The notes beneath the pieces were generated by a model. It had not been told where the DNA came from. It made no database searches and saw nothing but the letters and a program-made list of their open reading frames with translations. This document shows positions 619 through 50,190 of a stretch of DNA of 64,000 bases, piece by piece (the first letter of the stretch is position 1; each line of letters opens with the position of its first letter). The DNA is from Terriglobia bacterium. GTDB taxonomy: Bacteria; Acidobacteriota; Terriglobia; Terriglobales; Acidobacteriaceae. The stretch covers positions 62,001 through 126,000 of the forward strand of contig JAIQGF010000011.1 in the NCBI GenBank assembly GCA_020072845.1, written 5' to 3'. A program made the position numbers and the translations under genes.

Positions 619-1077
619 TCAGCTTTGTTTCAACGCTGCCAGCACCTCGGCGGCGTGCCCCGCAGCCTTGACGCCGCGGAACTCGTGCTTCAGCTTGCCG
701 TCGGGCCCGATCACGAACGTGCTGCGCTCGATGCCCATCACCTTTTTCCCGTACATATTTTTTTCTTTCAGCACGCCGTAGGCCCGGGCGAGCTTCTTCT
801 CCGCGTCGGAGAGCAGCGTAAACGGCAGCTTGAATTGCTCCTGGAATTTCTTCAGCGCGCGCGGCGAGTCGGGCGAGCTGGCCACCACCTCGACGCCGGC
901 TTTCTTGAACTTGGCGTATTCGTCACGAAACTCGGACGCTTCCACGTTTCAACCGGGAGTGTTGGCCTTCGGGAAGAAATACAGGACTACGGTCTTGTCG
1001 CGAAAGTCTTTCAGCGACGTGCTCTTTTCGTCCTGATCGGGCAAATTAAACTCGGGGGCTTTATCATTGACTTGCAT
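619..1077 (-). CDS. BCP-type peroxiredoxin, candidate selenoprotein (UGA at the peroxidatic position)
   Basis: Thiol/selenol peroxidase of the PrxQ/BCP family that reduces peroxides, probably with thioredoxin. Read from ATG 1077 (GGAGAA upstream), the first 42 codons end ...FFPKANTPG. An in-frame UGA at 951-949 follows as codon 43, then NVEASEFRDEY continues in the same frame to a normal stop. Without the UGA the product is 152 aa, the usual length for BCP. The UGA lies exactly where BCPs have the catalytic Cys (TPGCTVEA...). The residue five positions later, Cys in two-cysteine BCPs, is Ser here, so this would be a 1-Sec type. Frame, length, downstream motifs (GIERSTFVIGPDGK) and ribosome-binding site are intact, which argues against decay. 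No selA, selB, selC or selD is in the window. Alternatives are a nonsense mutation or a sequencing error. Confidence 0.75.
916..931 (-). promoter_or_regulatory. Candidate bacterial SECIS-like hairpin downstream of the UGA
   Basis: On the mRNA strand, nucleotides 18-33 after the UGA can fold as GTTTCG-TGA-CGAATAC: six pairs with one bulged U and a 3-nt loop. The loop starts 24 nt after the UGA and has G as its second base. This fits the loose bacterial SECIS rules (apical loop roughly 16-37 nt away with a G in the first two loop bases). Hairpins this small are common, so this is supporting evidence only. Confidence 0.4.
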
Positions 1078-2509
1078 GATAGTTCTCCGGCGAAAAAGTA
1101 TCTTACACCGCGCCTTGCTCTTGGCGTTGTGCCTCGTCCTGTCGTTGGGCGCGGCGGCACAGCGCACCGCGCGCAAGGCCAAGGGTCCGCGCGCGCTGGC
1201 CCTGGTGGAATGGCCCGCGAACGGCGGCAGCCCGCGCGTCATCCCGGTGACCATCCTGGTGGACGGCCGCTACTACGATGCGTCCATCTACAAGGCGGAC
1301 CCTGTGCCCATGGCGCTGGAGGCCGGTAACGTGTACGAGGTGGAGCAGAGCGGCGCATCCATCGGGATGGTGACGCTCACTGCTGCGCGCCAGGCGAAAA
1401 ATGGCGCGTGGCTCGCCGATGCGCGCTTCCAGACCAACGAACAGTTGGCGGCGGCGCACAGGCCGCGCGATGTTGCTCCACAATCGGCGACCGTAGGTGA
1501 AGGTCCACCGACGTTGCGCCGCGGCGGGCGGCGTTCCGGACGCGACCGGACGCCCCAGCCGACCAGCACGCCCGAACCAAAGTCGGAGCCGCAGCCTCCC
1601 GGAGATGATGGACCGCCCGTGCTGCATAGACCCGCGAGCGAAGAACCGTCGCCGGACGCAACCAAGCCAAGCGATACGGAGAGCAAGCCAACCGATAAGG
1701 CGAATGCGCCACCAGTTCCGCCATCACCGCCGAGCCCGTCGAGTTCGCAGCGGCCGGAGGATTCCGAACATCCGGTGCTGCGGCGCGGGCGTCCAACCGC
1801 CGAGCAGGCGGAGAATCTTCCCGGCGCGGTGGACGCGAAGGCGGCGCCGAAGTCGCCCGCCGCGCCCGCAGGTCCCAGTGCAGCCGCGGCCAAGGCCGCT
1901 GCGGCGCGCCCCGGACGCGTGCTGCCGGCAATCTCCGATGCCGCAGGTCCGGAACCGCACACCTACCTCCTGCCCTGGAACCTGGACGAGCAGGAGCGGC
2001 TGAAGAATTCCATGATCCAGTTAGCGAGCGCCGCGTTGCAGGACTTCGCGCGCACGCACGGCGGCACGCATCCCGGCCCATTGCAGGACGTGCAGGTGCG
2101 CGCTTTCGATCTCACCACCCGCAACGAACCGCAAGTCGTTCTGATGGCGCGCGCCCTTGACGCGCCGGCCGCACCGGTGCGCCGCGCAGGCCCGCGTCCG
2201 GGAGCCAAACCACGCGCGGCAACGCCACCACCGCCGCCGGCAGGCGCGGGATTGACCTACTGGATCACCGTGGCGGCGCGCCAGGATTACAACGGCGAGC
2301 TACGCAAGCTGAAAGTGTGGGCCACCGACAGCAAGCACCTCGATGCCTATCCGCGCGCCGAGCTGATTGACGCCGTGGACGCCGATGGCGATGGCCGCGG
2401 CGAGCTGCTGTTCCGCGAGATATCCGATAACGGCCAGGGTTTTGCCCTGTATCGCGCCACCCCCGACTCCCTCACGCAGCTCTTCAACAGTGCAGAACTG
2501 GAGCACTAG
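1076..2509 (+). CDS. Secreted proline-rich protein of unknown function
   Basis: Not a recognised family. ATG 1076 gives a basic n-region (RRK), a hydrophobic stretch and an AAAQ-like cleavage site, so export is likely. A folded N-terminal part (about 30-120, ending VTLTAARQ) is followed by a long Pro/Ser/Lys/Glu-rich low-complexity linker (about 130-280). A C-terminal domain (about 300-477) contains VDADGDGRGELLF, which looks like a Ca-binding VCBS/FG-GAP-type loop. A TTG start at 1067 is possible but less likely. The start codon overlaps the divergent peroxiredoxin start (CATG serves both strands), so each promoter must lie inside the other gene or be shared. Confidence 0.7.
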   Translation: MIVLRRKSILHRALLLALCLVLSLGAAAQRTARKAKGPRALALVEWPANGGSPRVIPVTILVDGRYYDASIYKADPVPMALEAGNVYEVEQSGASIGMVTLTAARQAKNGAWLADARFQTNEQLAAAHRPRDVAPQSATVGEGPPTLRRGGRRSGRDRTPQPTSTPEPKSEPQPPGDDGPPVLHRPASEEPSPDATKPSDTESKPTDKANAPPVPPSPPSPSSSQRPEDSEHPVLRRGRPTAEQAENLPGAVDAKAAPKSPAAPAGPSAAAAKAAAARPGRVLPAISDAAGPEPHTYLLPWNLDEQERLKNSMIQLASAALQDFARTHGGTHPGPLQDVQVRAFDLTTRNEPQVVLMARALDAPAAPVRRAGPRPGAKPRAATPPPPPAGAGLTYWITVAARQDYNGELRKLKVWATDSKHLDAYPRAELIDAVDADGDGRGELLFREISDNGQGFALYRATPDSLTQLFNSAELEH

Positions 2510-3485: not shown

Positions 3486-3647
3486 CCACGGATCGCCACG
3501 GATTAGCACGGATCAAGACAAGTCAGAAGTAAGAACGGCCACTCGAAAACTACGCGGATTCTCCGCCGCTTTTACTCCTGATTTCTTACTTCTTAATTCT
3601 GACTTCCGATCTTCTGATCCGTGTTTATCCGTGGCGATCCGTGGTTA
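3484..3647. repeat. Inverted array of ACGGAT and AGAAGT units between convergent genes
   Basis: The left arm reads AACCACGGATCGCCACGGAT followed by AGTCAGAAGTAAGAA. The right arm is the near-exact reverse complement (TTCTTACTTC...ATCCGTGGCGATCCGTGGTT). Both strands would form one long imperfect hairpin over about 160 bp. No ORF lies inside. It may act as a bidirectional terminator for the metallo-hydrolase gene and gatB. Confidence 0.7.
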
Positions 3648-6561: not shown

Positions 6562-6715
6562 TCTGAGTGAGAACCCAATTTCGTAGACGGCGGTGGTCAA
6601 AGTGGGCCGAAAATCCAGCCGCAGAGCGGCGGGATTCGTTAGCCCAGCGCGGCAGCGCTGGGGATAGTGGAAGAAAATTGTCGAGCGCCAGCGGCGCGAC
6701 ACAGGTCTCACACAA
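6562..6715. repeat. Dispersed hairpin element, copy 1
   Basis: Part of the 424-bp gap between yqeY and the aminotransferase. The core GCGGGATTCGTTAGCCCAGC holds the hairpin CCCAGCGC-GGCA-GCGCTGGG at 6643-6662, and GAGCGCCAGCGGCG follows. Related copies are at about 12047, 41620 and 49984. The flanking arms (GAGTGAGAACC on the left, GGTCTCACACA on the right) pair only partly here. The rest of the gap has no recognisable gene. Confidence 0.75.
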
Positions 6716-11823: not shown

Positions 11824-12200
11824 AAAGCAGTTGGTATTTGGTGGTTGGTAATTGGTAGTTGGTAATTGGCAGTTGGGAGGACTGGTTTCAAAAGTCATTC
11901 TTGGGACGGGCACGGCTTCATTAGGCTGCTGATAAACTCCAATTGAAGCTCGTTTTGAAAGGGCGCGGCGAAACCTGTCCCGGGCGGAGCCGAGGGAGCC
12001 GCGCCGCAGAAGCCCTTTATTATTGTCATTCCGAGGGACCTCAGAGTTTGTGTGAGAACCCCTTTCGGGAAGCGCAGTGGTCCAATCGCGCCCATAATCC
12101 AGCCGCGGAGCGGCGGAATTCGTTAGCCCAGCGCGGCAGCGCTGGGGAAAGTGGAACAGGATTATCGAGCGCCAGCGGCGCGGCACAGTTCTCACACACG
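11824..12200. repeat. Gene-free spacer: TGGTAATTGG array and dispersed hairpin element, copy 2
   Basis: The spacer between rsmD and the unknown protein has three parts. At 11830-11880 there are tandem GGTAATTGGTAGTTGG-like units. Near 12020 is a short stretch resembling the TCATCCCGAGCGGAGCGAGG family (ATTGTCATTCCGAGGGACCT). At about 12047-12199 is the second hairpin element, whose core hairpin is CCCAGCGC-GGCA-GCGCTGGG. Its arms GTGTGAGAAC and GTTCTCACAC are perfect reverse complements, and an inner ATAATCC/GGATTAT pair also matches. I see no gene. Confidence 0.75.
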
Positions 12201-41637: not shown

Positions 41638-41780
41638 AGCTCGATTTCGCGCGTTGCAGTGGTCCAAAAGCGAACCGAAACCAGCCGCGGAGCGGCGAAA
41701 TTCGTTAGCCCAGCGCGGCAGCGCTGGGTAAAGTGGACCAAAAAGCGTGAGCGCCAGCGGCTGACACAGACACCTGCGGG
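41620..41780. repeat. Dispersed hairpin element, copy 3
   Basis: The core AATTCGTTAGCCCAGCGCGG with its CCCAGCGC/GCGCTGGG hairpin is conserved. The outer arms here are GGTGTCTGTGTCA and TGACACAGACACC, unlike the GTGTGAGAAC arms of copy 2. Inner segments GGTCCA and TGGACC also pair. The left arm contains the start of the membrane protein gene. Confidence 0.75.
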
Positions 41781-49822: not shown

Positions 49823-50190
49823 TTTGGCGATTTGTGATTTGGCGATTTGTGATTTTAGCGATTTGGTTCCGCTCGCACTCCGAGCGCGCCAAGCTGAGCC
49901 ATTTGTGATTTGGCGATTTGTGATTTGGCGATTTGTGATTTAGTGATTTGTGATTTTAGCGATTTGGTTCCGCTCGCACTCCGTTCCAGCCGCGGAGCGG
50001 TGGCATTCGTTAGCCCAGCGCGGCAGCGCTGGGGAAAGTGGAACAGAATTATCGAGCGCCAGCGGCGCGGCACAGTTCTCACACACACACTCGCCAGCCC
50101 TGGGATGTCACGCGTCAGGATAGCGGTCCACGGTCGCATGCTCGCAGCCAGTTCAAATCACTAAATCACAAATCACTAAATCACTAAATG
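49782..50190. repeat. Direct duplication of the oxidoreductase 3' end, ATTTGTGATTT arms and hairpin element copy 4
   Basis: TCCGCTCGCACTCCGAGCGC begins at 49782 (inside the gene) and again at 49868, and a shortened copy starts at 49969; the period is 86 then 101 bp. Between them run GATTTGTGATTTGGCGATTT units. At 49984-50091 is hairpin element copy 4 (core CCCAGCGC/GCGCTGGG), lacking its left arm. At 50155-50188 AAATCACTAAATCACAAATC closes the array in inverted orientation and provides the miaA stop. No gene lies inside. Confidence 0.85.

Follow-up and report, generated by a model that had tools for sequence, protein, structure and literature searches.

The question raised by this locus is whether a UGA codon standing at the catalytic position of a bacterial peroxiredoxin gene is read as selenocysteine (Sec). 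The gene lies in a stretch of 64,000 nucleotides from a Terriglobia bacterium of the Acidobacteriota (contig JAIQGF010000011.1, positions 62,001 to 126,000; hereafter the window), and had been put forward from the letters alone as a candidate selenoprotein. Our analysis bears this out: the gene almost certainly encodes a cytoplasmic Sec-containing peroxiredoxin of the BCP/PrxQ type, in which Sec would be inserted under the direction of SelB and an mRNA hairpin, and which would be reduced by an outside thiol. The computational observations that carry this reading are a UGA at the catalytic codon, Sec machinery in the host, the alternation of Sec and Cys at that codon among relatives, selection on the frame after the UGA, and a bacterial SECIS (bSECIS) hairpin found across the Sec forms as a group.

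The gene and its predicted product

The gene occupies positions 619-1077, as first proposed, and is on the minus strand, which had not been specified. With TGA read as Sec (U), the frame begins with an ATG at 1077 and runs through 42 codons, the UGA (codon 43, 949-951), 109 further codons and a terminating TGA (619-621), giving 152 codons and a stop. This agrees with the original prediction of 42 open codons up to TPG, a single UGA, and an open frame from there to the usual end of BCP. The mechanical list of open reading frames cuts the gene into two pieces, 949-1254 and 619-945, making it a clear case of a selenoprotein broken in two by such a list. A Shine-Dalgarno-like GGAGAA upstream of the ATG (1083-1088, minus strand) is found in four of four members of the genus and probably functions as such.

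The predicted product has 152 residues, none of them Cys, and a mass of 16,976 when Cys is substituted for Sec. It contains an AhpC/TSA domain (PF00578, 140.5 bits, 3.4e-41), passes the model for thioredoxin-dependent thiol peroxidase (NF006960, 153 bits; cut-off 140) and has the PxxxTxxC motif of BCP/PrxQ proteins with Sec in place of Cys (PxxxTxxU). The UGA comes directly after TPG and, in an alignment with solved BCP structures, falls on their Cys, so that it does replace the peroxidatic Cys of TPGC, as had been claimed; P36, T40, residue 43 and R118 are invariant in a five-row alignment. The protein thus shares its fold family and active-site motif with the Cys peroxiredoxins of this type (NF006960; 5enu, 5iph), but differs from them in having Sec for the peroxidatic Cys and no Cys at residue 48 or 97.

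In BCP/PrxQ proteins a resolving Cys five residues past the peroxidatic Cys is typical, though not universal. It is absent from the window protein, where residue 48 is Ser (codon TCC, 934-936), again in line with the original prediction. Two solved BCPs in the alignment also lack a resolving Cys five residues on, and its presence is therefore not a condition of membership. The protein is not PrxU by the NCBIfam model NF040737, since its score of 54.1 bits is below the curated cut-off of 270. No signal peptide was seen by eye, and the enzyme would reside in the cytoplasm. Its nearest named relative is from a 'Terriglobia bacterium', with 88% identity.

Downstream of the gene lies a methylpurine-DNA glycosylase gene (PF02245; 3-566, minus strand), and upstream a divergent open reading frame (1076-2506, plus strand) that matches no Pfam family and may begin at an ATG overlapping the start of BCP. 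A short intergenic stretch resembling CACGGATTTCCACGGATGG appears by eye to recur in the window at about 570-605, 3490-3510 and 3620-3640. The window also holds four Acido-Lenti-1 RNAs (RF01687), all on the minus strand, at 6617-6662, 12101-12146, 41683-41728 and 49988-50033.

Selenocysteine machinery in the host and its relatives

The earlier suggestion that the genome be searched for selA, selB, selD and tRNA-Sec was followed up, and all four, the set that accompanies a bacterial selenoprotein, are present in the host genome (4.23 Mb in 27 contigs, rated 100% complete). The tRNA-Sec scored 66.8 bits and was called by ARAGORN as tRNA-SeC with anticodon tca (UCA); in the survey of relatives below, the threshold for this RNA was 58.5 bits, chosen to shut out matches to tRNA-Ser, and SelB was taken when over its cut-off. 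SelB scored 364.7 bits, SelA 563.7 bits and SelD 352 bits. The SelD gene (L127; G000:C11:217393-218031, minus strand) has an in-frame UGA of its own in the motif AAGUASKLSP, which we take to be the catalytic Sec/Cys site of SelD.

Among relatives, the machinery was surveyed in genomes whose BCP has Sec (Sec forms, 51 genomes) or Cys (Cys forms, 58 genomes) at codon 43. Both tRNA-Sec and SelB were found in 41 genomes with Sec forms, one of the two in eight, and neither in two, which are rated 82% (G119) and 73% (G083) complete. The corresponding numbers for Cys forms are 29, 4 and 25. At least one of these components is thus found in 49 of 51 genomes with Sec forms compared with 33 of 58 with Cys forms (Fisher p 1.1e-6, a value that ignores shared ancestry). 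Many genomes that decode Sec still use Cys in BCP.

The host has a second likely selenoprotein (L131; G000:C8:215931-216494, plus strand), an AhpC/TSA protein whose start resembles a signal peptide and whose in-frame UGA falls at TGGU. All 13 of its matches at E<=1e-25 have exactly one TGA (21 genomes searched, its own included), the position of the TGA having been read in L131 only, and the protein is over the cut-off of none of the NCBIfam models. A relative of this TGGU protein in another genome (G073:C44:180675-181390) ends 97 nt from a tRNA-Sec gene on the same contig.

Sec peroxiredoxins had been described as known from other bacteria, and the accessible parts of two reviews confirm this: their tables of established selenoprotein families include peroxiredoxin (Prx), entered under COG1225 (Bcp) with the motif TxxU, and cite for it the enzyme of Eubacterium acidaminophilum, in which the family was first shown (PMC9312934, PMC13188914). 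By these tables the window protein has both the domain family and the TxxU position in common with the known Sec peroxiredoxins, and, the enzyme family being already known to use Sec, it would be a further member. It differs in its Acidobacteriota host, in the replacement of the resolving Cys and in having no Cys at all. A Sec-containing BCP of Acidobacteriota was not found named in the literature searched, a body from which most subscription papers were outside reach. One survey counts four selenoproteins in three families for Acidobacteriota, the families not being visible in the accessible part (PMC1794560), and another study reports three known selenoproteins, not named in the part seen, for one test genome of this group (PMC12013277). 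The less usual parts of the present case are the Cys-free form and the suspected Sec-to-Cys reversions discussed below.

Codon 43 and the downstream hairpin

All 120 genomes searched gave some match, and codon 43 was read in the best match of 109, the window gene included. Left out were two genomes with weaker matches, which had no stops (G019, G084), one with a fragment lacking codon 43 (G113), and eight with distant matches only, the best at E 1.5e-22 or weaker (G059, G073, G076, G078, G080, G085, G094, G116). Among the 109 orthologues codon 43 is TGA in 51, TGC in 51 and TGT in seven; an in-frame UGA thus stands where 58 homologues have Cys. In the 51 TGA rows codon 43 is the sole in-frame stop within the aligned region, and the distance from there to the following stop is 106-132 codons. 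The alignment of relatives that had been called for yielded TGA or a Cys codon and no stops scattered elsewhere. Of the three outcomes named beforehand as refutations, none was encountered. Named records contributed 80 loci, 14 of which repeat sequences already counted; the 66 further orthologues have TGA in 15 cases and TGC or TGT in 51. Outside this count, a paralogous BCP-like gene (L125, G107:C155) has TGA at the position that aligns with codon 43 (FTGGU), unlike the best BCP match of the same genome, which has Cys there.

The ratio dN/dS in six pairs from four genomes of the genus is 0.064-0.172 past the UGA and 0.045-0.204 before it. The frame after the UGA is under purifying selection, and the low ratio there indicates that it is translated as protein. 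The figure of about once in 150 given earlier for a random nonsense mutation at this codon is simply the count of codons. An isolated stop in a single gene is always open to suspicion of error, but it is scarcely credible that this UGA is a nonsense mutation in a pseudogene, or a TGC or TGT misread in assembly; this explanation was rejected on the selection after the UGA and on the recurrence of TGA at codon 43 in the two sets of orthologues, its presence in many separate assemblies arguing against sequencing error. We give just as little credence to the idea that UGA is reassigned in the host (for example to Trp), or generally read through, with no special meaning at codon 43. Such reading would likewise keep the frame open, but the BCP gene itself ends in TGA and the 58 orthologues without TGA have Cys codons as their sole alternatives, never Trp, which led us to reject it; the UCA anticodon of the host tRNA-Sec speaks against it as well.

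If the UGA is read as Sec, a bSECIS would be expected just 3' of it. The window has an upper stem-loop at 921-938 (minus strand) that consists of a stem of seven pairs with one bulged U, capped by an apical GUU loop (931-929) 17 nt past the UGA. The 36 nt past the UGA fold at -10.0 kcal/mol, and the isolated 21-nt hairpin at -6.7. Loop, stem, spacing and the folding energy over 36 nt are within the limits of the bSECIS model, as given in the accessible part of its description: a loop of 3-9 nt with G in the first two positions, a stem of 4-16 bp, a spacing of 16-37 nt and a minimum free energy of at most -7.5 (PMC13188914). As far as the bacterial consensus is given there, the hairpin in the window agrees with it in a 3-nt loop starting with GU, a 7-bp stem and a 17-nt spacing, and differs in the single bulged base on the 3' side of the stem. 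Another candidate for the SECIS, a hairpin with an AGCG loop immediately at the UGA, was considered and rejected, as its loop is too near the UGA and it is the next hairpin that the relatives share. In the best known SECIS, that of E. coli fdhF, the bulged U sits in the 5' strand of the stem.

Taken alone, the window's hairpin is not significantly more stable than expected from random synonymous codons (z -1.73, p 0.083), and the fold of the 72 nt past the UGA is no better than that of shuffles (z -0.57). It took a comparison of Sec with Cys forms to bring out the bSECIS signal. Against random synonymous codons the hairpin has a mean z of -1.83 in Sec forms, with 30 of 51 at p<=0.05, compared with a mean z of -0.10 and none of 58 in Cys forms. 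The apical loop opens with G in 48 of the 51 Sec forms and in 19 of the 58 Cys forms; Gly49 is encoded by GGG in 28 of 29 and 4 of 26, respectively, and Ala47 by GCG in 41 of 48 and 7 of 51. The covariation score of the Sec forms (40 distinct rows) is above that of 500 of 500 shuffles, which keep relatedness, the hairpin structure itself being read off the same sequences; in the Cys forms the score is ordinary, 365 of 500 shuffles being as high. The occurrence of further pair types in the Sec set is no better than in shuffles (219/500). Stabilization by synonymous codons and covariation of the hairpin are thus properties of the Sec forms as a group, and not of the Cys forms. One Cys form, L059, has TGT at codon 43 and yet the same hairpin fold; it groups near a Sec row, the grouping being weakly supported, and may be a recent Sec-to-Cys revertant. 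Gly42, the residue preceding Sec (954-952 in the window), is encoded by GGT in 29 of the 51 Sec forms and in 4 of the 58 Cys forms, perhaps an effect of UGA context.

We infer that SelB, together with Sec-tRNA(Sec), would bind the hairpin just 3' of the UGA and so place Sec at codon 43. Translation would terminate at the final TGA of the gene, which is outside the hairpin context.

The resolving cysteine and Sec/Cys exchange

In the proposed catalytic cycle, the selenol would reduce peroxide and be converted to selenenic acid. Since the window protein lacks any Cys, reduction of this acid would call for an external thiol (thioredoxin or one of low molecular weight) and would not proceed through an internal disulfide. 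The original prediction that the enzyme would depend on a single selenol holds for the window protein, but does not extend to the Sec forms as a group. Cys48 is present in 54 of the 58 Cys forms, compared with 22 of the 51 Sec forms. The other 29 Sec forms comprise 16 with no Cys at all (the window protein included), seven with Cys97, and six with Cys90 or Cys67. The 16 Cys-free enzymes would need an outside reductant. An initial description of all 29 as having lost the resolving Cys was refined because Cys97 is a possible other resolving site in seven; half of the Cys forms (29 of 58) and 11 of the 51 Sec forms have Cys at this residue, and the two solved BCPs in the alignment have Cys at about residue 97, consistent with a role as a second resolving site. 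In the further orthologues Cys48 is absent from six of 15 Sec forms and six of 51 Cys forms, five of the latter six being Gammaproteobacteria.

The history of these residues was read from a tree of the 109 proteins, built after masking residues 43 and 48; directions of change on it are parsimony readings, taken without a known root. At least ten of the 12 Sec/Cys changes that the tree requires are forced by well-supported branches; residue 48 changes ten times. L088, which has Cys43, Asn48 and no other Cys, falls in a 100/98 clade whose other three rows have Sec and Asn48. Similarly, L091 and L106 (Cys43, Gln or Arg48, Cys97) fall in a 100/95 clade whose other six rows have Sec and Arg48. These placements suggest reversion from Sec to Cys in the two clades. 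In the accessible part of a 2026 review, Sec-to-Cys changes are described as rare and mainly found in FdhA and SelD (PMC13188914); an earlier survey, likewise seen in part, lists 12 Sec peroxiredoxins with apparently five Cys-to-Sec and no Sec-to-Cys events (PMC1794560).

For the class as a whole, it may be that the uptake of Sec frees BCP from its resolving Cys, so that peroxidases with a single selenol and no Cys arise, and that Cys revertants keep the loss as a scar. We regard this as a serious possibility, falling a little short of an even chance. Somewhat less probable, in our judgment, is that the proteins do contain Sec but that Cys48 was lost for reasons unconnected with Sec chemistry, the change reflecting pairing in the bSECIS stem or drift in a few clades. 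In the hairpin, codon 48 forms pairs with codons 51-52, and the two sides vary together (TGC is matched by CGC in 21 cases, TCC by CGT in nine or CGC in six, and AAC by CGT in three); the Cys forms lacking Cys48 among the further orthologues, mostly from one class, fit this explanation too. Tests of Sec against loss of Cys48 on independent pairs are likewise not significant: ten pairs gave 2.4 changing in the same way, 0.0 in the other and 7.6 without difference (median p 0.5), and a repeat with six pairs gave 1.7, 0.3 and 4.0, residue 48 being alike in most pairs. On the other side, TGC fits the stem in 21 Sec forms, so that the RNA does not force the loss of Cys48, and by parsimony a Sec branch is involved in nine of the ten changes at residue 48, all but the one on the long and doubtful branch L124.

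Whichever of these accounts for residue 48, the relatives of the window gene constitute a natural experiment, in which one enzyme of closely related soil bacteria has switched between Sec and Cys in at least ten supported instances, in the presence as well as in the absence of a resolving Cys. The 51 Sec and 58 Cys genes also make a good alignment from which to define the bSECIS of Acidobacteriota. The questions opened are what a thiol peroxidase gains from Sec, whether the resolving Cys becomes dispensable under Sec, and whether the exchange can be undone. If Sec does free BCP from its resolving Cys and revertants keep the scar, these enzymes would represent Sec-to-Cys reversion in a peroxiredoxin, and the cost of giving up Sec would be directly testable.
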